From Ceratodon purpureus (lineage: Eukaryota > Streptophyta > Bryopsida > Pseudoditrichales > Ditrichaceae): 64,000 bases of DNA. The notes beneath the pieces were generated by a model that did not search any database, was not told the DNA's origin, and worked only from the letters and a program-made list of their open reading frames with translations. Of the stretch, positions 11,201 to 60,735 are shown one piece after another (positions within the stretch are counted from its first letter, which is position 1; every line of letters starts with the position of its first letter). The translations under genes and the position numbers were made by a program. Location: positions 15,446,930 through 15,510,929 of the forward strand of contig CM026427.1 in the NCBI GenBank assembly GCA_014871385.1, given 5' to 3'.

Positions 11201-13563
11201 ATAGAGTGTACTATCAGGCTAAAAGCTCCACAATTACATAGTCAATGTTCCAGGCGATTACAACTACAGGAAGGAGAATACAATCGAGGTCCAAAAGTCC
11301 ACCAAAAACGAGCAAGTATACCTTGACGGGATACATTGTGAATTTAACAACATCCAAGTCGACAAGCTTTTCAGCTAATTCCTGCTTCAAATCAGTTGCC
11401 AATTCCTGCAAAGACATGACTAATCTGTGAGCAACAAGAGTGCGGCATTTCAGTTCTTTACTCCAAAATGCTTTTCAGTCACCACTCCTTGAAATTTGCG
11501 TAAAAATTCTGCGCACCTGAAGCTTCACTCTAAATATTGCCTTCTCTTCAGGCTGATCCGAGGATACCAGTTGCTCAAGCTCTGCAATAATATTCGGGGG
11601 GAAAACGCTGGGGTTGGGCACTGCATACACACAGCGTTGCATGTTCCGTACTACCACACAGCAGCTCTCATACCTTCCACCGACTGGCACCTGCAATGTC
11701 AAAATATAGCAGAAATAAGATCCATAGTCAGGGGTAGTATTGTTTTTGGCGGTATTTGTGGCACAGCATGCATTTCTCTAGTGCCGTGTGAGAAAAAAAA
11801 CACGTTTGAATCCAAGCGTTTCAAGTGTAGGTACATACCTTTCCGAACATGTAAATAGTGCCAGGATTGGCCCCGTATGGTTCTTCGTGGGCATCAATTA
11901 AGAAGAAAGGGAGGCGACCTTCTGCATCTATTGGTAAACTAGTGCCATCACATAGAATTCTATCATTCAAGTCTTCTTCTTTCTTTATCACCGCAGTCGC
12001 ACTATTTTCTGTCACACCCTTGCTAATTGCATGCCATGCTGCTGTTGCTCCTTTCCCTGTGTCTTCGACTTTGGATATCTTAGCATTCAGGACGATAGGT
12101 GCTGCATCCTTCTCCAGTTTCAGCCTAGCAGACATATCGTCCGACACTTTCTTATCAAGCTCTTCCCGTCCAACTTCCTTCGCTTGAACTGTTTGAACAG
12201 TATTTCCTAAGGGGTCCTGGTCATGTCCTGGGACAGTGGTTACAACAGGTGGGTCATCTGATACATCTGCGTCTTCGAGATGGTCGCTCACTGGAATATC
12301 CATAATCGGGTGGGATGAATGAACATTCTGGCTTTCCTGCATAATTACCAGGATCCGAATTTATCAAGGCCGACGTCATCCCCAAGTTCATGTGGTCAGA
12401 GCCAAAAATTCTTTCGAAACAAGTGAAGTTAAACTTACGAATGTGGATTTCACGACATTATCCAGAGTCAGCCTCTCCGGCGCTGGTTGAAACACCACAT
12501 CCTGTCCAGCTGTTGAAGTGCGGATATCTGCAAACTCAACCAATGTTGTCCCTTGAGAGTAAGAAATAGAAGATCCAAAGAGGTCCGAGAGTTGAAAACC
12601 ACTCCGTAATCAACACACTAGGTGGCAAGCCTCTTAAATGGCCTCAGGCCTGAGCTTATGAGTCAAAAATATGTCTGAAACCAGGAAAGAGTTAAGATCA
12701 ACTGCTTAACAAGGATCCAATTTCGTGCTGGACTACTGGTATTCAGGTACATCAATTCACCAAACAAACATAAACTCACTCGCACGTCGTCGCCGCTTCT
12801 CTCTTTCGCGATCGAAATCGTCAGCGGAAATGTCAGCAAGCACATCATCCAGGATAGATTCTGTATTGACTCCTTTATCGTCCCGCATTCGCCGTCCCAG
12901 AGAAGGAATTCCTGACGCAGAGGTGAACATGCTTGCTAGGCGTTGCTTTCCTATCAGGGATGCAGCAGCTGACAATGCAGCTGCCTTCCTATTTGGCACA
13001 TCTTTCTTGACCTCTGCTAAATTGAAAATAACCTCGTCAGACCAACTCCTGCTGGAACATTACCTAGGAACAAATGAAGACCTAAACGCAACATACTGTC
13101 GCAAAATGTAGCCCTCGGGGCAGCATCCGCACACAACATAACAAGAAAGAACGACTATGCTCTAAATTTAAACCACTCGGATTGCACAGAGGAGCGAAGA
13201 CATTTCCACCATCTCACCATCGCCATTCTTCTTCTTTTTCTTGCCACCGCCACCATCCTCATCGCCGCTCTCATCGCTATACTGATCCACATTCCAGTCC
13301 TCCTCCTCTCCAATATCCGCATACCCTAAGCCATCGTCAGCAACCACGAAATTCTTCACCTCCTCTCGTCTCTTCTGAACGAGAAGATTATAATCCGCCT
13401 CCGACAGAGAATCGTAAATCTTCTCCTCCTCCCGAACCTGGAAAGTGTCCACCCGCCGTCCGCCCTTATCCTTCAAGTTCTTCAGCTCCAAAAGCGCGGC
13501 AGCCCGAGCGGAAACCTCCGGAACCACACCTCTGGTCCTCCTCCCTCCTCCACTCGTCGCCAT
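2277..13563 (-). CDS. POLA1: DNA polymerase alpha catalytic subunit
   Basis: Catalytic subunit of the nuclear DNA polymerase alpha-primase complex, which extends RNA primers at origins and on the lagging strand. Thirty-four exons join in phase to about 1579 residues (Arabidopsis ICU2 is about 1.5k). The N-terminus, start ATG at 13563, has the family [10 protein letters not shown] and [13 protein letters not shown] acidic segment; the B-family core has the inactive exonuclease region ([15 protein letters not shown], about 9270), motif [12 protein letters not shown] (7573 end), motif [14 protein letters not shown] (6963/6773) and motif [10 protein letters not shown] (6104). The C-terminal zinc modules are CAQCYKKY...[10 protein letters not shown] and CDDEMC...CPLYPRC. 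Exons: 13218-13563, 12780-13013, 12439-12527, 11839-12336, 11517-11690, 11322-11405, 10996-11070, 10744-10808, 10295-10385, 9947-10135, 9625-9785, 9230-9344, 8928-9107, 8604-8717, 8026-8145, 7573-7893, 7270-7362, 6963-7084, 6701-6773, 6520-6576, 6012-6104, 5773-5897, 5496-5593, 5292-5337, 5021-5188, 4777-4854, 4457-4570, 4243-4332, 4041-4123, 3675-3882, 3377-3430, 2888-3007, 2640-2714, 2277-2462. An in-frame TTG six codons upstream is not the start. No break seen. Confidence 0.96.
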
Positions 13564-14510
13564 TGCGCACCACCACTCCAATCACACACAACAGTGATCT
13601 ACTAAACCCCGTAGAAGCTCCTGAACACTCCTTAACATCTGATAAACCAGTCACTGACGCAGCCACTCCACCGAACGAAGCTCTCGCATCGCACTCCGCT
13701 GCAACAAACAGAGCAAAACAGAGGAAAAGAGTGAAGCTCGCATTCTGGAGATGGGGCAAGCATTCGAACCCCCGCGAAGACGATGCGGGAGATGGGCCAC
13801 GTCAGAAGCGCGGGAAAAAAACCGAGGGAACTTCGCAACGGCGTGAGGATTTGGGCGATGAAGGTGGATGAGTATAGGATAAATGTGTGATGAATGTGGA
13901 GGATGGGAGCAACGGACACAGGCTGTAGAGGGGGTGGGCCCTGGGGTTTGATTGTGTCAGGAAGTGTCAGAGTTTTTTTGGTTATTAACGGTAGTCTTTG
14001 TTGATTTGTATTTTGTTCTTCGCCGGGATGTTCGGGTGTGCTCTCTTGAGAGTTACTTGTCTCTTACAATTTGGTTGCCAATTGGAAAATTGGGCTGTGG
14101 TTGTTTTGTTTTTGTGGGTTCGTGAAGTGTTGTTGGTAGTAGTAGACTAGAAGTTGAGGTTGAGTTTTGGGGAGTGGTTAGAGGAAAGTCATTGTAGTAA
14201 GTTATTTTGATGAAGGTATATCATTGATTTAAATTTATCATATTATGTATATATATATATATATAGTTAATTAGTTTGCAATTTTGAATTTTTTTTTAAA
14301 ATCGATTCTACATTAATGTTTCTACTTTCTCCATTTCTCTCACTACAAAAATATACTATTGTATTGAGGTCTATGATGTTTTTGTTTTGCCTCCAAAAGT
14401 GAGTCGTATTATGTAGAGTCCTTCGCAAGTGCATTTACTATCCAACGCGGCCAAATTCATCATTCTCATGAAAGGCTTGACAAATATTGTTGGAAGAGCT
14501 ATTTGAAGTG
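13564..14510. other. Intergenic, POLA1 promoter and 5' region
   Basis: Contains the E2F-type site and, further out, a (TA)n microsatellite at about 14247-14264 with AT-rich flanks. No additional gene: the long plus-strand frame over 13182-13871 is antisense to POLA1 exon 1 and its leader. Confidence 0.5.
13810..13817 (-). promoter_or_regulatory. E2F-type binding site upstream of POLA1
   Basis: The minus strand reads TTTCCCGC within a TTTTTTTCCCGCGC context, the canonical E2F/DP site (TTTSSCGC), about 250 bp upstream of the POLA1 ATG. E2F sites are known in promoters of S-phase genes including polymerase alpha, so location and orientation support function; binding itself is inferred. Confidence 0.55.
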
Positions 14511-15323
14511 TCAACAGAACTTGTCCATGTGATCTTCATCGCTTAAAGATATATCATCTTCATCGCTTAAAGATATATCATCTTCATCGCTGATATCAAT
14601 GATTGAAATCCCGCTCTGATTTGTGCATATATTGGGTAATCTAAGGTATTCAATATCTTTATCGCTGATATCACTGATTGAAGTCTCGCTCTGATTTGTG
14701 CATATATTAGGCAATCCAAGGTATTCAATATCTTCATCGTTGATATCAGTGATTGAAATATTTCTCTGATTTGTGCATATTATAGAGCAATCCATGTCGT
14801 CGTCAGAATCATCGATGGTGATGATTTCGGGATGCAACATATTAGGGCTTACGGAATTGGTGATTGAAGTCTCGCTTTGAGTTGTAGATATTACCATTGC
14901 GCCCTCTAAGGAGTCGTCGTCAGAATCATCAATCGTGATGATTTCAGGATGCCACGTATTTGAGCTAAATGCAGAACTCGTGATAGAACTCTCGCTTTGA
15001 GCTGTGGATATTGCCTCTACACAATCTAAGTCGTCGTCAGAATCATCAATGTTAATAATATCAGGTTGCAGCATATTAGAGCCTGTGGAACTAATGCTTG
15101 AAATCTCGTCTTGATTTCTGGATACTGCAGTACAATCCAAATCGCCGTCAAAATCATCGACGTTGAAACAATCCAAATCGTGGTCAACACTGAAACCATC
15201 CAAATCGTGGTCAGAATCATCAACGATGATATAATCGATGTCGATGAAGCCATCAAAATGCGGCATATTGGGACTTGGTGCAAGGTTCATTACATGTGTC
15301 TTTGGCACTGCCTTCGGTGGCAT
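14511..15323 (-). CDS. Acidic protein with tandem SUMO-interacting-motif-like repeats
   Basis: I do not recognise this gene. It is an uninterrupted 270-codon frame from the ATG at 15323 to a TAG. The protein is very acidic and repetitive. Four near-identical cores of the form h-I-h-x-h-DDSDxD occur at residues 31-40 (YIIVDDSDHD), 88-98 (DIINIDDSDDD), 127-137 and 166-176 (both EIITIDDSDDD), and a related ISIIDISDEDD at 239-249. A short hydrophobic I/V patch followed by D/S/E is the pattern of phospho-regulated SUMO-interacting motifs, and DDSDDD also suits casein kinase 2. Between cores are repeated Ser/Thr linkers (TQSETSIT) and NICTNQS units; the tail repeats DDISLSDE. No catalytic domain or RING is visible. 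An upstream exon is possible because CTGAG|GTGAGC precedes the ATG. Poly-SUMO binding is inference from motif shape only. Confidence 0.55.
   Translation of the reverse strand: MPPKAVPKTHVMNLAPSPNMPHFDGFIDIDYIIVDDSDHDLDGFSVDHDLDCFNVDDFDGDLDCTAVSRNQDEISSISSTGSNMLQPDIINIDDSDDDLDCVEAISTAQSESSITSSAFSSNTWHPEIITIDDSDDDSLEGAMVISTTQSETSITNSVSPNMLHPEIITIDDSDDDMDCSIICTNQRNISITDINDEDIEYLGLPNICTNQSETSISDISDKDIEYLRLPNICTNQSGISIIDISDEDDISLSDEDDISLSDEDHMDKFC
14533..14598. repeat. 24-bp tandem repeat in the acidic gene
   Basis: The unit TCTTCATCGCTTAAAGATAT plus ATCA is present twice exactly (14533-14556, 14557-14580) and partly a third time. On the minus strand each unit encodes DDISLSDE. A larger, about 75-bp duplication containing CTCTGATTTGTGCATAT recurs at about 14610, 14690 and 14763, so the gene has grown by repeat expansion. 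Confidence 0.85.
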
Positions 15324-16643
15324 CTTGCTCACCTCAGGAATTTTGGCAGCTTGGACGGTTCTTGCTCACAATGCTGCCTTAGGTCGATGGTTTACCTCCT
15401 TTTTGCTCTACTTTTTTGTGGCAGATGGGGGAATAAGTTTTGTCCGTCACATGAAATTGGTGCTAATTTGTGATTGTGATTGTACGGTCCTGCTTGTCAC
15501 AGCAGGCAACCTCCAGACAACGGTGCTACATCAGCGCCTTTGCCCCATCATCGACATGCACATGAACTGTTGATGGTGAACAAGTAAGCAAAGCTACCCT
15601 AAACAGGTTAGAGATTGATGACGGGGTTGGGTACAACTCTGAACATATATGAATAGTAAACGAGTGTTTGTTGAATCTTTATATATTACTTCATACTCAA
15701 GTGACACCAGTTATGGCCCTGCTAGAGAATTTAAGCTCTCTGTTCCTTGGTTCTCAATGTGGGAAATATCAAAAGTAAAAGTAAAAGTCTTTTGAATTTT
15801 ACTTTAAGGCTTTTAACTATTCAATTTGGGAAATATAAAAATTATAGGCTTTGAAGTAGAGATCTATTTCGAGCATCAATATCACAGCCAAGCTCAGTAC
15901 TAACGGGATATAACAACAGAATCTCCGTAGCCACTGCAGCTCCACCTACATGAGCTTACTGGATGGCTCTGAATCCTCAGGTGCAGCAATATATAAAAAC
16001 TTTCAATACTTGAATGGATGTCAGCTACGACATCTACTAGCCTCAAACTTCACAAACTGATCATCTCAAGAAACACAAACCTCAACGGTCAAAGGAGGGG
16101 TAACTGATCTGTTGGCTCTTTCGCATCTTGGCGCAAAGAGTTTCAATTCAAGGGCTTGCGTCCCACCATAGCCATCTGGCCAAAATCGGCGCCGTAACCA
16201 AACGCAGTTGGGCAGTCGGTATGCTTCCAGAGACATCACTAAAGTAGTTATGGCTTCGAGTTGTTCGACATCTTCCAGCCGATTCCAATTGTCTTCTCGA
16301 CTCTCGTTCAGGGCCTCAGGAAGAGCTACGGCATCTTGGAAATTGTGTCGACATTCCTGGAATAGTACTTGGTCCATATCACGAACAATTTGCGAACTTT
16401 CAAAGTATGGCCAAACACTGCCTGCTTTCGATTAGTCCTCTTGGTATTCCTCTCCAGCGCAAAAAATACTAGAGCCTCCAGGATGAAGAGGGATCCGAGT
16501 GAAAACAAGCAAGCTTAAGCTCATTCGTCTGCAATCGCCATGGCTGTGGGAGCCAATGTACCCACAATCTTCAGAAAGCGAGGCATTATTGAAGCGTGTA
16601 GAACCAACGAGAGGCCAACAACAAAGTGCACGGTGTCTCAAAT
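15324..16643. other. Intergenic between acidic gene and EAPP 3' end
   Basis: Mostly unremarkable; AAAAGTAAAAGTAAAAGT microrepeat near 15772. The right part is the probable EAPP 3' UTR. A minus-strand frame at 16066-16377 (103 codons, with YRLPNCVWLRRRFWPDGYGG) has no recognisable relatives or splice support and is left unannotated. Confidence 0.4.
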
Positions 16644-17883
16644 CTATGAAAACGTAGGAATTGCGTCAAAGAAATGGTACACTTCGTCACTATCTAAGAC
16701 TGCAACTTCTGCCCCACATTCAGCGCATTTGACGGGCTTGAATACTTCTTCACCAACTCGTACATCCTTGGGATCTATTCTAATCATCCCAGGACCTCCT
16801 ACTGGAATATCTTCCTCCTGAACTCGACTCTTACGCCTTGCATTCCGTTTCCTCTTCTTGCTATCAGAATAACGAAGTCTCTCTGTCTCCACAATTGTAC
16901 AATTCCGTACAAACATAGCTCGGTACTGGTTCACGTACAATTCGTGCCTGCAATAAAAAGGGGAAACCAGGATGCATGAGAAACAGTCGCAGCACTGGCG
17001 AACGTGGAAATTTGAAAGAGGGCGTAAGTATAGCACCTTTGACAATCGATGCAGAGAGTGTTCAAGCAAGCGGGGCACGTAAGAACAGCATCAGACTTGC
17101 GACCTTGGCGTTGCTTCAGGGCCCACTCCTCATTCTTGTCGTCATCAATAGGATCGTAAAAAGGTGCCAGCGAGGGTTGGACAGTAGGTTGAACAGTGGG
17201 CTGGTCAGCAGGTTCGGCAATTGCAGTTGGCAATTCTGCAAAAATTTCACACGAAGTTGAATCTTCAACAAGTCTTAAAAAAACAAAGGAACGTTTATAA
17301 AAAAACAAAGTCACAAGAAGAGAATCAGAGGATGGTTAGCCTCCGAGGCATCGTACTCATACTAATTTCTGCCAATGCTGCAGTTTGACAATCTCAGAAC
17401 CAGAATTACACGGTATCAGAAATTATATCCAAGAAACAAGCACATAAACTATCCAAAACTGAAAGAAAATCTCAATTCACCCTATACACAGATCCAAATA
17501 CACTAACATTTCAACGCCCATACCAAGCAAAACCCTAAAACCCTAAACCCCAAACCTCAACCCAACAAAAACAACACTAAGCTAAACAAGTCGAAGCTCC
17601 AAAGAAAACCTAGTCGCAGGAAAATGAAGGAAACAAGGACAGCAAAGGAGCGGAATGGACGCTGTACCAGACCCCTATGCAAAAACCGAATGCAAAAACC
17701 CCAAACCCCTATCCGAAACCCCTACCACTTAATCCAACAATACGACACCAAATTCCGAAAATCAAAAGCTCCGGAGTCCGCAGAGATTGGTGGGTTGGAA
17801 GAGCGGTACATACGATCAGAGGCGGTGTCCGTGGCCATAGCTTCCCCTGCTTCTGCGACGCTGTCCTCCGTGCGAGACTCCAT
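16644..17883 (-). CDS. EAPP: E2F-associated phosphoprotein (EAPP) homologue
   Basis: Nuclear protein that in animals binds E2F factors and modulates E2F-driven transcription and p21; the plant role is not established. Three exons (17814-17883, 17037-17235, 16644-16947) join in phase to 190 residues, starting at the ATG at 17883. The family's C-terminal domain is intact: CPACLNTLCIDCQRHELY, then QYRAMFVRNC, a basic KKRKRNARRKSR tract, and KCAECGAEVAVLDSDEVYHFF, giving two Cys pairs that may bind metal. The N-terminal part is acidic and proline-rich (QPTVQPTVQPS), with family DPxxDDxNE. It is shorter than human EAPP (about 285) mainly in the N-terminal half. Intron 1 carries telo-box repeats. 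It sits 3 kb upstream of POLA1 on the same strand. Confidence 0.88.
17530..17551 (+). promoter_or_regulatory. Telo-box cluster in EAPP intron 1
   Basis: AAACCCTAAAACCCTAAACC contains two overlapping AAACCCTAA telo-boxes, a known plant cis element in promoters and 5' introns of genes active in cycling cells. Too short to be an interstitial telomere. It lies in the first intron, about 330 bp downstream of the EAPP ATG on the transcribed strand. Confidence 0.5.
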
Positions 17884-56449: not shown

Positions 56450-56522
56450 GCTCCCGTGGCCTAATGGATAAGGCATCTGACTTCTAATCAGGGGATTGTG
56501 GGTTCGAGTCCCACCGGGAGTG
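56450..56522 (+). tRNA. tRNA-Arg (anticodon UCU)
   Basis: A 73-base cloverleaf: acceptor GCTCCCG pairs with CGGGAGT (one G-U), D arm GCCTAATGGATAAGGC, anticodon arm TCTGA-CTTCTAA-TCAGG with anticodon TCT, T arm GTGGG-TTCGAGT-CCCAC, discriminator G. No intron, no encoded CCA, and a T6 run right after (56525-56530) acts as RNA polymerase III terminator. Internal A box (TGGCCTAATGG) and B box (GGTTCGAGTCC) are intact. Nuclear plant tRNA-Arg type. Confidence 0.95.
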
Positions 56523-56730
56523 CTTTTTTGATGGTTCTCACTAATTGCAACTGTGCTCGCCAGAAACTATGTGTTAAACTGGTAGTTTCGAACTGAAACA
56601 TGGTGGTCCTCGTCCTTCTCGAAACGAGGATGATAGCCGTTTCTAGGATTGGCGAGTTAATGCTAAGAGTATGATAGATCATAGCTGTGGGGATTTGACG
56701 CAAGAATGTCATGTGCAGGAAATAATAATA

Positions 56731-56951
56731 CTCCCCCTCCGTCTCACTAAAAGACCATTGTTTGGTCAAAAAATCTGTCTCGAAATAAGATCGTTGTTTC
56801 TAAATTTGGCCTACATGTTTCTAAATTTGGCCTACATGTTTCTAAATTTGGCCTACATGTTTCTAAATTTGGCCTACATGTTTCTAAATTTAGAATTACA
56901 CTTAAATATGATATTATTAGCAACCCAAGGTCTTTAGTGAGACGGAGGGAT
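56731..56951. mobile_element. Stowaway-like MITE, 221 bp
   Basis: The ends read CTCCCCCTCCGTCTCACTAA on the left and, inward, ATCCCTCCGTCTCACTAAAG on the right, each flanked by TA. The CTCCCTCCGT tip with a TA target is the Tc1/mariner Stowaway signature. About 22 bp of inverted repeat can be paired. The interior contains four to five copies of a 21-bp tandem repeat. Confidence 0.8.
56796..56890. repeat. 21-bp tandem repeat inside the MITE
   Basis: A 21-bp unit (TTTCTAAATTTGGCCTACAT plus G) is repeated identically four times and begins a fifth time before diverging (TTTCTAAATTTAGAATT). Identity between copies points to recent expansion within the element. The plus frame would read NLAYMFL repeats, but nothing supports translation. 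Confidence 0.9.
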
Positions 56952-57969: not shown

Positions 57970-60277
57970 TCACAGCTGTCGGTGACGGTCGTCTATCACA
58001 AAAGGGAAATCACAATTTGCATCGCTGCATTTGCAATCCAGCCCCGCCAACTGAAATGCCGACTCCTCGGTGATGTCTGGGCTCGTCAAGTGCCGAAATA
58101 AAGTCCTTGCGCGTCCAGTAGGACTCTCCACCCACACGCACATGATCCTCTCCAGAGTTATGATGTCGTCCTCTAACAGGCGGATATCGTTACGGGTGTT
58201 ACGGCTTCTGTTCGTCACCCTGGTCAGCGATTCAACTTCCGCTTCGACCTTCTTCCGGAGGTCCTCCACTTCGTCTACCGGGGAGTCCTCTTCGTATTCG
58301 CCCGATGTCGCAGTTGTATGGAAGTGTCTCCTGACTGCCCTCGCTAACTCGTACTCCTTCAAATCCTTCTCCACTTCAAGCTCCTGCATCTCCAACTTCC
58401 CCACGTCTACTTCTAATTCTCCGTAGAGTTTGACGAGGAGCTCCATCTTCTCAGCGTGAACCAGCATACCCCGTTTAATTTTGAGAGACACGTATTGGCG
58501 GCATGCTTGGACCGAAAGACCCTCCATGAAGACACATTCGGGTCCTGCACAAGCAAGACCAGAATTCAATCTCTATTTATCAATCCCTGTCTTTGTAGTT
58601 CCGATTTTGTGCATCTAGAACTCTATCAGCACAATGGCAAATACGATGTTCACAATACAAGGAACTTGAAGAAGCCATGGCCAATTTCAAGCCTTACCTG
58701 TGATTTTCTCGTCATCAGTAGAAACAGGGGTTCTGATCGTCGACCCTGTCAATGTCTTGCTCAGAAACGCTCTCTTCCACGCTGCCTCCGTGATGAACGC
58801 CACATGTCTTGCCACACCTGCTTCCGCTCCTTCCTTTTTTGGGCGATCATTATGCGCACATGGACTATCCATTGAAGGTGCATCGTTGTTCAATTCTGAC
58901 GCATGGGAGCCTGAGGCTATGTTGTCCTGGGGCGTCTCCGTCTTCACAACGACATTTGTGGGAATCGTGTGTACTGCAAAATATCAAATTGCCGCATCAG
59001 ATAAAGCGCGAATCAGATAGTGACCAAAAACATCTACTATAATCAGAGTATGTTACATCGAAAATAATTCACCGTGATCATATGACAAGAGGACACGGAA
59101 AACACCCACCTGGGCTTGCGCTTCCGGGGCTGTTGAGTTTTTCCTCGACCTTCACCGGCTCGAACCAAAGTTTCCGTCGTTTCATCCCGCATGTGCACTT
59201 CCCATGACGGTCCTCCACTGTTTCGTCTACTTCCTTCGGTGCTTCCGGGTTCTCATCGAGAATGCTCTCCGTAGCTGCCACGAAAAGTGATACATGTCAG
59301 AATGTACAGGAGGGATTACAACAAGGATTGCAATGCGTACATTGCCCCCACACACCATAGCCTACTACTCACATGTTTTCAATTACTTACCCTCCACTCT
59401 TTCTATGTACTATCTTTAATTCAGACAGAAAACAGGAGGTATACATGCGCGGTGTCTCCCAAATGTTACCTTGATTTCCCCTTGCCATCGGTACTCCACT
59501 CTCCCGCGCAGCACCACCGTCTTTGGCGACACTTGCATTGGGACCGAGTCGCACAACTCTATTCCCATCCGATGGGTCGGCCTTGAAGACGACATTGACA
59601 TCCCAGTCCAGCGGGCTACCCTCCTCATCGCCCGACTCGGATGCGGCTTCATTTTTCGGCCACATCTCCGGGCTTGTCTTCGTTCGCAGAGCCTCCATCG
59701 AAACGAACTCAAATACATCTCCCTTGCGTGTCAACTGTGAGGGTTGCTGGGCCTTTGCGAGAAGATGCGCTGTGTCCCCCGTCCCTCTGTGGGTCATTTT
59801 CCTGGCATAACCCGCCCAATTGATCGGATATCCTTTTTTCTCCGCGAGCAGGCCACGCCCAAAGTGGTACGGGATTGCGTCCGAGGCTCCGATGGGTCGC
59901 TGGAAACAACGTTGGTAGAGGAAACGGATTCGACGTACCATCCTGGGGGACACTCTCCTCTTGTAACGCCCGCCGTTGTGGTAGTTCTTCTGTCCCCAGA
60001 ATTGAACATACTCTTCCCGAGAGCAATGTTCGTCTCCGAGATTTGTCCCCGGGATGAAGCCGTAGCTGTTGAGACCCTCCTTCTCCGCAAACCACCATAT
60101 GGACCCGACGCTGCGATCTTCCGGGGGCTCCGCCAGTGCTGCGGTGAGAATCCTCCGCTGGGACCCCGTCCTCCGCGTGTTCTCCATCGGCAGTCCAAAG
60201 GTACGATCCTCCGGGCCCTCCGCAACTGCTGTCGCGACAGTTTTCTGCTCCAGGGTCATTCTCCGCGTGGTCACCAT
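57970..60277 (-). CDS. Unrecognised multi-exon gene, 607-residue protein
   Basis: I do not recognise this family. Four coding exons (59470-60277, 59110-59274, 58698-58973, 57970-58544) have consensus splice sites and join in phase to 607 residues, start ATG at 60277. N-terminus: a duplicated motif, TRRMTLEQKTVATAVAEGPE then TRRTGSQRRILTAALAEPPE, each followed by DRxxG. Next a tryptophan/tyrosine-rich block (SIWWFAEKEGLNSYGFIPG, EYVQFWGQKNYHNGGRYKRR, RMVRRIRFLYQRCFQRPIG, YPINWAGYARKMTHRG), which could be a nucleic-acid or protein-binding domain. An acidic middle has KCTCGMKRRKLWF; the C-terminal 190 residues include heptad-like helices (ELEVDVGKLEMQELEVEKDL; EDLRKKVEAEVESLTRV) and a Cys cluster CKCSDANCDF near the end. 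An upstream leader exon (60607 to about 60735) and TATA box fit the same strand. It may be a lineage-specific gene or a domesticated transposon protein; nothing decides. Confidence 0.65.
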
Positions 60278-60735
60278 AGCCGGTCCCGTTTCCGAAGGGC
60301 AGATGTCAATTCGGGTCCAGAACAGGTGCAAAACACACGACAACCTGTGGCAACGACAGATAGCAAATGCACAGTAAGGAATCGACTTCACAAGCAAACA
60401 TGAAGACAACCCACCCACAATTATGCGACAACCTGCTTCAATCAAACAAGGCTACCCTCAAAACGATGTTCCTCCTAATCCAGTACCTCACTACCCTGAC
60501 AATGTAGGGAAATCAGAGAGCGCTACAACTCACTGGAATACCGGACCTAAACCCCTACAATTCTCTACTTCCGGAGCTCTCTCGAAGTATCGCCATAGAC
60601 ACTCACCTCAATGCACAAAGTCCTAAACGCTCTCCAACGACAGTAGAGCTCGACTACACTCGTGTCGGGCAGGATCACATGGTGCACATGAACAGAACTC
60701 AGAAACGTATTTCTCGGAATTGCTGAGGAAAACAG
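60278..60735 (-). other. Probable 5' UTR exons and intron of the orphan gene
   Basis: A strong donor GAG|GTGAGT at 60606 ends an exon-like stretch starting near 60735, and an acceptor TGCCACAG at 60345 opens the exon that contains the ATG at 60277. The joined frame is closed upstream of the ATG (AATTGA), so I read it as leader rather than coding. Confidence 0.45.

Follow-up and report, generated by a model that had tools for sequence, protein, structure and literature searches.

A tandemly repeated acidic reading frame with SIM-like cores next to POLA1 in Ceratodon purpureus: a candidate for a natural stand-alone multi-SIM protein

The published form of the SUMO-interacting motif (SIM) is a hydrophobic hhXh stretch with an acidic or serine flank, and the SIM of Daxx, IIVLSDSD, is phosphorylated by CK2 (PMC8616421; this and the other papers are cited here from excerpts). 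In SIMC1, tandem SIMs in a disordered region are combined with an Nse5-like domain, and the protein binds SUMO2 polymers (PMC9708086). Mouse GCNA is predicted to be entirely disordered, acidic and repetitive and is a member of a SIM-bearing family; the protease and the zinc finger of human GCNA are missing in it, and upon its loss 10 of 11 males sired no offspring (PMC5098910). Among higher plants, YABBY proteins have been proposed as members of the GCNA family (PMC5098910). A bare SIM array has been engineered from repeats of the PIASX SIM, and it forms droplets with poly-SUMO (PMC8616421). Bryophytes possess SUMO as well as PIAL chain-forming ligases (PMC11371177). According to the initial annotation of the locus described here, the poly-SUMO readers with SIM arrays that were known to it all include a RING, helicase or ATPase domain; SIMC1 and mouse GCNA, as far as they are described in these excerpts (PMC9708086; PMC5098910), speak against this as a general rule. 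Since both are known, the stand-alone architecture is less unusual than was claimed.

The window, that is, the whole stretch of DNA that was analysed, comprises 64,000 nucleotides of contig CM026427.1 of Ceratodon purpureus. Its minus strand holds an ORF of 270 codons with no internal stops, which runs from an ATG at 15323 to the end of the stop codon at 14511 (14511..15323), just where the initial annotation had placed it, and which would encode an acidic repeat protein with SIM-like cores. Counted from stop to stop the frame spans 284 amino acids and opens at 15365, 14 codons upstream of the ATG. The downstream neighbour, likewise on the minus strand, is the start of the gene for DNA polymerase alpha (POLA1; PF12254, E 3.2e-18), whose start codon lies at 13563 by our own count, about 0.95 kb past the ORF stop. 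Upstream of the ORF are a decayed PP2A B56 fragment and then the EAPP gene (PF10238), both on the minus strand. Other neighbours recognised by Pfam in the window are a DUF1664 protein and a glycosyltransferase-4 family protein, which we take to be DPAGT1; the neighbourhood as a whole is in keeping with a land plant. Inspection by eye of the minus strand at 15380..15680 found a TATATAA-like site, some 350 bp ahead of the start codon, and several upstream ATGs or short upstream ORFs between the two, which would hinder translation of the ORF if the leader is unspliced; a donor-like string, GTGAGC, was also seen just ahead of the ATG.

Several observations concern the surroundings in their own right. 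The B56 (B') fragment (16150..16474, minus) is 68% identical in DNA, over 328 aligned positions, to a copy at 17.108 Mb on C7 of the same genome; its coding match is split over three frames, its Pfam match stays below the cut-off (E 0.0055), one frame has no B56 match, and two PDB searches with it found no match with an E value of 0.01 or less. Three B56 genes with an equal score for their first part (514.4 bits), one on the plus and two on the minus strand, lie within about 22 kb (G000:C2:3664706-3686207), which looks like a recent local duplication; a fourth B56 gene is on C7. Elsewhere in the window, a tRNA-Arg(TCT) gene at 56450-56523 is the lone Rfam match, called as the same tRNA by ARAGORN and uninformative on the ORF, and about 270 bp after it a 21-bp unit occurs in 4.6 perfect copies (56795..56891). 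A 352-aa ORF (59387..60445, minus), for which Pfam gives no family with an E value of 0.1 or less, is overlapped by a 219-aa ORF on the opposite strand.

Four near-identical cores and a related fifth, spaced by 35-55 residues, had been described in the ORF protein. Five cores are indeed present, all encoded on the minus strand, of which only three are near-identical (D/E-II-N/T-I-DDSDDD): core 2, DIINIDDSDDD (15030..15062, residues 88-98), core 3, EIITIDDSDDD (14913..14945, residues 127-137), and core 4, again EIITIDDSDDD (14796..14828, residues 166-176). The first core, YIIVDDSDHDLD (15198..15233, residues 31-42), is looser and reads YIIVDDSDHD over residues 31-40; core 5, ISIIDISDEDD (14577..14609, residues 239-249), contains IIDISDEDD. 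From start to start the cores measure about 58, 39, 39 and 74 residues apart, which replaces the spacing given before. The N-terminal part adds two degenerate copies, FSVDHDLDC and FNVDDFDGDLDC (15132..15194, minus; self-match offsets 27 and 63), and two weaker 75-bp units carry SITDINDED and SISDISDKD. The SIM-type pattern that had been noted is well founded, as Ile-Ile-x-Ile-Asp-Asp-Ser-Asp-Asp-Asp is hhXh with an acidic/serine flank in the published sense (PMC8616421, in part). Cores 2, 3, 4 and 5 have hhXh or hXhh beside acidic residues or a candidate phosphoserine, core 1 (YIIV) has it loosely, and the surroundings of the core serine are CK2-like, in the manner of the SIM of Daxx.

Controls matter here because a composition rich in D, S and I (51, 39 and 36 residues of the 270) makes SIM-like strings likely. 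The strict pattern, hhXh or hXhh with at least three D/E/S directly after it, matches four times against a shuffled mean of 0.18, and 0 of 5000 shuffles reach four; three of the four matches are mutual duplicates, and hence only about two independent origins are counted. When at least three of five flanking residues had to be D/E, there were 4 matches against 0.75 (P 0.008), and with four of five there were 4 against 0.10 (0 of 2000 shuffles). The permissive ELM SIM pattern (as quoted in an excerpt of PMC5098910) showed no enrichment, with 3 non-overlapping matches against 2.0 in shuffled sequences (P 0.32), and the loose flank rule of at least three D/E/S among five gave no significant one (4 against 2.04, P 0.13). 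Among eight other ORFs of the window that were tested, strict matches occur in one (a single match) and ELM matches in three, one of which has three. The core motif thus fits the SIM well, but such a fit is by itself weak evidence for SUMO binding.

The evidence for selection comes from comparing synonymous with nonsynonymous change in cores and linkers, a comparison that the initial annotation had proposed. It was made on three linker-plus-core units, a, b and c (starting at about residues 66, 104 and 144; core of 11 codons, linker of 25), aligned by hand at the codon level over 36 of 38 columns, after removal of the two that contained gaps; the test excluded the 75-bp units, the degenerate N-terminal copies and the first core, since these cannot be aligned over a whole unit. 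Taking the three pairs together, core and linker have similar synonymous change per codon (0.68 and 0.76), whereas amino-acid change per codon in the core is a fifth of that in the linker: the nonsynonymous change amounts to 4.5 over the 11 codons of the core and to 51 over the 25 of the linker (random-column P 0.0018; here and below the counts are small and the three unit pairs are not independent). For the three pairs, dN/dS is 0.15, 0.08 and 0 in the core as against 0.92, 0.80 and 0.42 in the linker. As the core had been chosen for looking conserved, a scan correction was applied, in which any run of 11 permuted columns may be as conserved as the core (P 0.026); the core-linker contrast in total change has P 0.069 after this correction. 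The synonymous share of change is 0.62 in the core and 0.27 in the linker (P 0.0045), and amino-acid-changing columns are 2 of 11 against 18 of 25 (Fisher P 0.004), a difference that is no longer clear once invariant columns are set aside (2 of 5 against 18 of 22, P 0.091). This contrast speaks for a coding role and for selection acting on the cores. The view that cores are conserved while linkers drift therefore stands at the codon level for the three 117-bp-type units and fails for the 75-bp units, among which no purifying selection was found (dN/dS 0.95 and 2.1 for two pairs, and 4 nonsynonymous to 0 synonymous changes for the third). Within units a, b and c, the six DDSDDD codons show zero change, synonymous change included, and because of this part of the core sameness may come from recent homogenisation.

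The explanation that we propose, to which we give about an even chance on what can be read from the DNA, is a young, single-copy orphan gene for a scaffold of the multivalent SUMO-reader type. The gene would be intronless over this ORF and expressed, and its disordered acidic product would carry four or five SIM-type motifs on flexible linkers. The Ile-rich strand of each core would dock in the groove of SUMO and the DDSDDD tail would lie along its basic rim, and CK2-type phosphorylation of the core serine could strengthen this docking. Several cores on one chain could hold several SUMOs simultaneously; with a core spacing of 39-74 residues, the bridging of several SUMO groups would be more natural than a tight zipper along adjacent SUMOs in a single chain. 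The protein may in this way gather or shield poly- or multi-SUMOylated nuclear proteins, with no enzymatic activity of its own. That the product is acidic and disordered is probable: in a charge-hydropathy comparison it lies on the disordered side, and a single-sequence AlphaFold model has a mean pLDDT of 37.5, which fits disorder but says little, as single sequences often model poorly. Strands are modelled at 89-93, 128-133, 167-172 and 239-244, at low confidence and besides ten other short strands. The wider claim, that of a natural poly-SIM protein which stands alone, is restricted to its lineage, consists of hardly anything but SUMO-docking motifs that tandem duplication has multiplied in frame, and serves a plant as non-enzymatic multivalent SUMO scaffold or sink, is put forward tentatively and would sooner prove wrong than right.

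The ORF could also be coding and be valued for its acidic DDSDDD runs rather than for SUMO, as a disordered protein that binds histones or other basic proteins or is a CK2 substrate, on the model of the mouse GCNA histone chaperone; we regard this as rather unlikely. The protein has 65 D/E against 7 K/R, a pI of 4.05 and 16 CK2-like [ST]xx[DE] sites, mouse GCNA, itself acidic and disordered, has histone binding and chaperone activity (PMC10250205, in the part available), and it is the acidic half of the core that is unchanged. The 7 K/R in 270 residues leave no obvious basic nuclear signal, a point against the scaffold reading. A pure charge cluster, however, would not need the hydrophobic half, in which Ile-Ile-x-Ile is kept at the protein level despite synonymous codon differences (7.5 synonymous and 4.5 nonsynonymous changes, the latter all at the D/E and x positions).

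A further possibility, to which we attach a similarly low probability, is a minisatellite that is open by chance, being untranslated or unselected. The DNA is strongly repetitive, as the initial annotation had recognised in proposing tandem duplication at the DNA level: Tandem Repeats Finder reports, all on the minus strand, a 117-bp array of linker-plus-core units (14788..15082, 75% matches), a younger 75-bp array without sign of constraint (14580..14794, 87% matches) and a 24-bp array of 2.5 identical copies (DISLSDED; 14532..14591, 100% matches), and the best self-match of the ORF DNA scores 95.8, where the highest value from 15 codon shuffles is 12.6. Such an origin would also agree with the upstream ATGs, with a codon usage that is only marginally like that of five ORFs or ORF parts of the window (P 0.054), and with the decayed B56 copy next door, which suggests an interval that collects debris. 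Likewise, the ORF has no relatives where they were sought. A paralogue search of its own genome (362.5 Mb, 151 contigs; 7 candidates scored) returned only the ORF itself as a single copy (E 9e-168), the second row (E 0.30) being unrelated by translation. Scans of IMG/VR (viral) and GTDB (prokaryote) contigs gave 29 and 67 pattern matches, none confirmed as a relative.

Against a minisatellite stand the core-linker contrast at equal synonymous change and the way in which the repeats respect the frame and the limits of the ORF. The periods of 24, 75 and 117/120 bp and the small N-terminal ones are all in frame, and offsets 117 and 120 reflect units that differ in length by exactly one codon. All 22 offsets above the maximum of the 15 codon shuffles are multiples of three, as are 37 of the 40 offsets listed; since they overlap, the independent periods behind them may number four or five, and by our own estimate the chance of frame-keeping by luck is then roughly 1 in 80 to 1 in 240. 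Elsewhere in the window, the periods of tandem arrays include 17, 19, 25, 27, 21 and 42, three of which are multiples of three. When 14000-16000 was compared with itself, the 15 strongest self-matches fell within 15243-14527, a block that starts 80 bp past the ATG and stops 16 bp short of the ORF end, and among the 25 self-matches listed three weaker ones reach outside the ORF (scores 17.4, 13.6 and 13.2; offsets 67, 1508 and 525).

That the ORF forms a single exon within a larger gene, such as one for a SUMO-targeted ubiquitin ligase (STUbL) or another SIM-bearing enzyme, is improbable, for although the frame is open upstream of the ATG and has the donor-like string just before it, the ORF has its own stop well ahead of POLA1, and the B56 fragment and EAPP follow upstream. 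In addition, Pfam was applied to 15 of the 32 stretches that reach from stop to stop over 30 aa or more on the minus strand of 14000-17400, and it found no RING, helicase, ATPase or protease in these 15.

Taken as the scaffold proposed above, the ORF protein can be placed beside the known systems. It shares with STUbLs such as RNF4, RNF111, Degringolade and those of plants, which read poly-SUMO, the presence of several SIM-type motifs on one chain (PMC8616421; PMC7767294; both in part). STUbLs differ in carrying a RING, and STUbL identity was rejected, as Pfam found none in the ORF or in the flanking stretches submitted to it. The initial annotation had reported no other domain in the 270-residue protein, and Pfam agrees, with no family at E up to 1 (284-aa version, none at 0.1). 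A PDB sequence search with the ORF gave one row that was taken as chance (E 0.46), and no literature on this protein was found among the best-ranked results on SUMO and SIMs, poly-SIM, moss and plant, tandem-repeat and GCNA topics.

GCNA/ACRC, and mouse GCNA especially, is like the ORF protein in its acidic, repetitive and rapidly evolving disordered region and belongs to a SIM-bearing family (PMC5098910, in part). The ORF does have the long acidic, probably disordered region with SIM-type motifs that marks GCNA, a resemblance in kind rather than evidence of homology; the metalloprotease domain, the C2C2 zinc finger and the two-helix HMG box of a typical GCNA were not found in it by Pfam. Descent from GCNA is not supported, in view of the lack of these three in the ORF and of a weak negative, the absence of SprT-like matches (PF10263) at E up to 0.001 when the whole genome was searched exon by exon (3 candidates scored), a search in which introns could hide a match.

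SIMC1 (C5orf25) is alike in its tandem SIMs and its disorder, and the excerpt names no RING or helicase in it (PMC9708086). It is unlike the ORF protein, in which no folded domain is visible, in that its folded Nse5-like domain binds SLF2 and localises SMC5/6 (PMC9708086). Judged by its sequence, the ORF is probably a new orphan case of the disordered multi-SIM proteins already known rather than a new kind. If real, it would be a compact plant tool to read multiple SUMO groups, a multivalent reader grown from one motif by in-frame duplication, and its copies of core and linker would offer an internal test of which residues matter. The closest parallel in form is the engineered poly-SIM, also a bare array of SIM-type motifs: that array is man-made, and the moss ORF would be its natural counterpart if its product binds SUMO.
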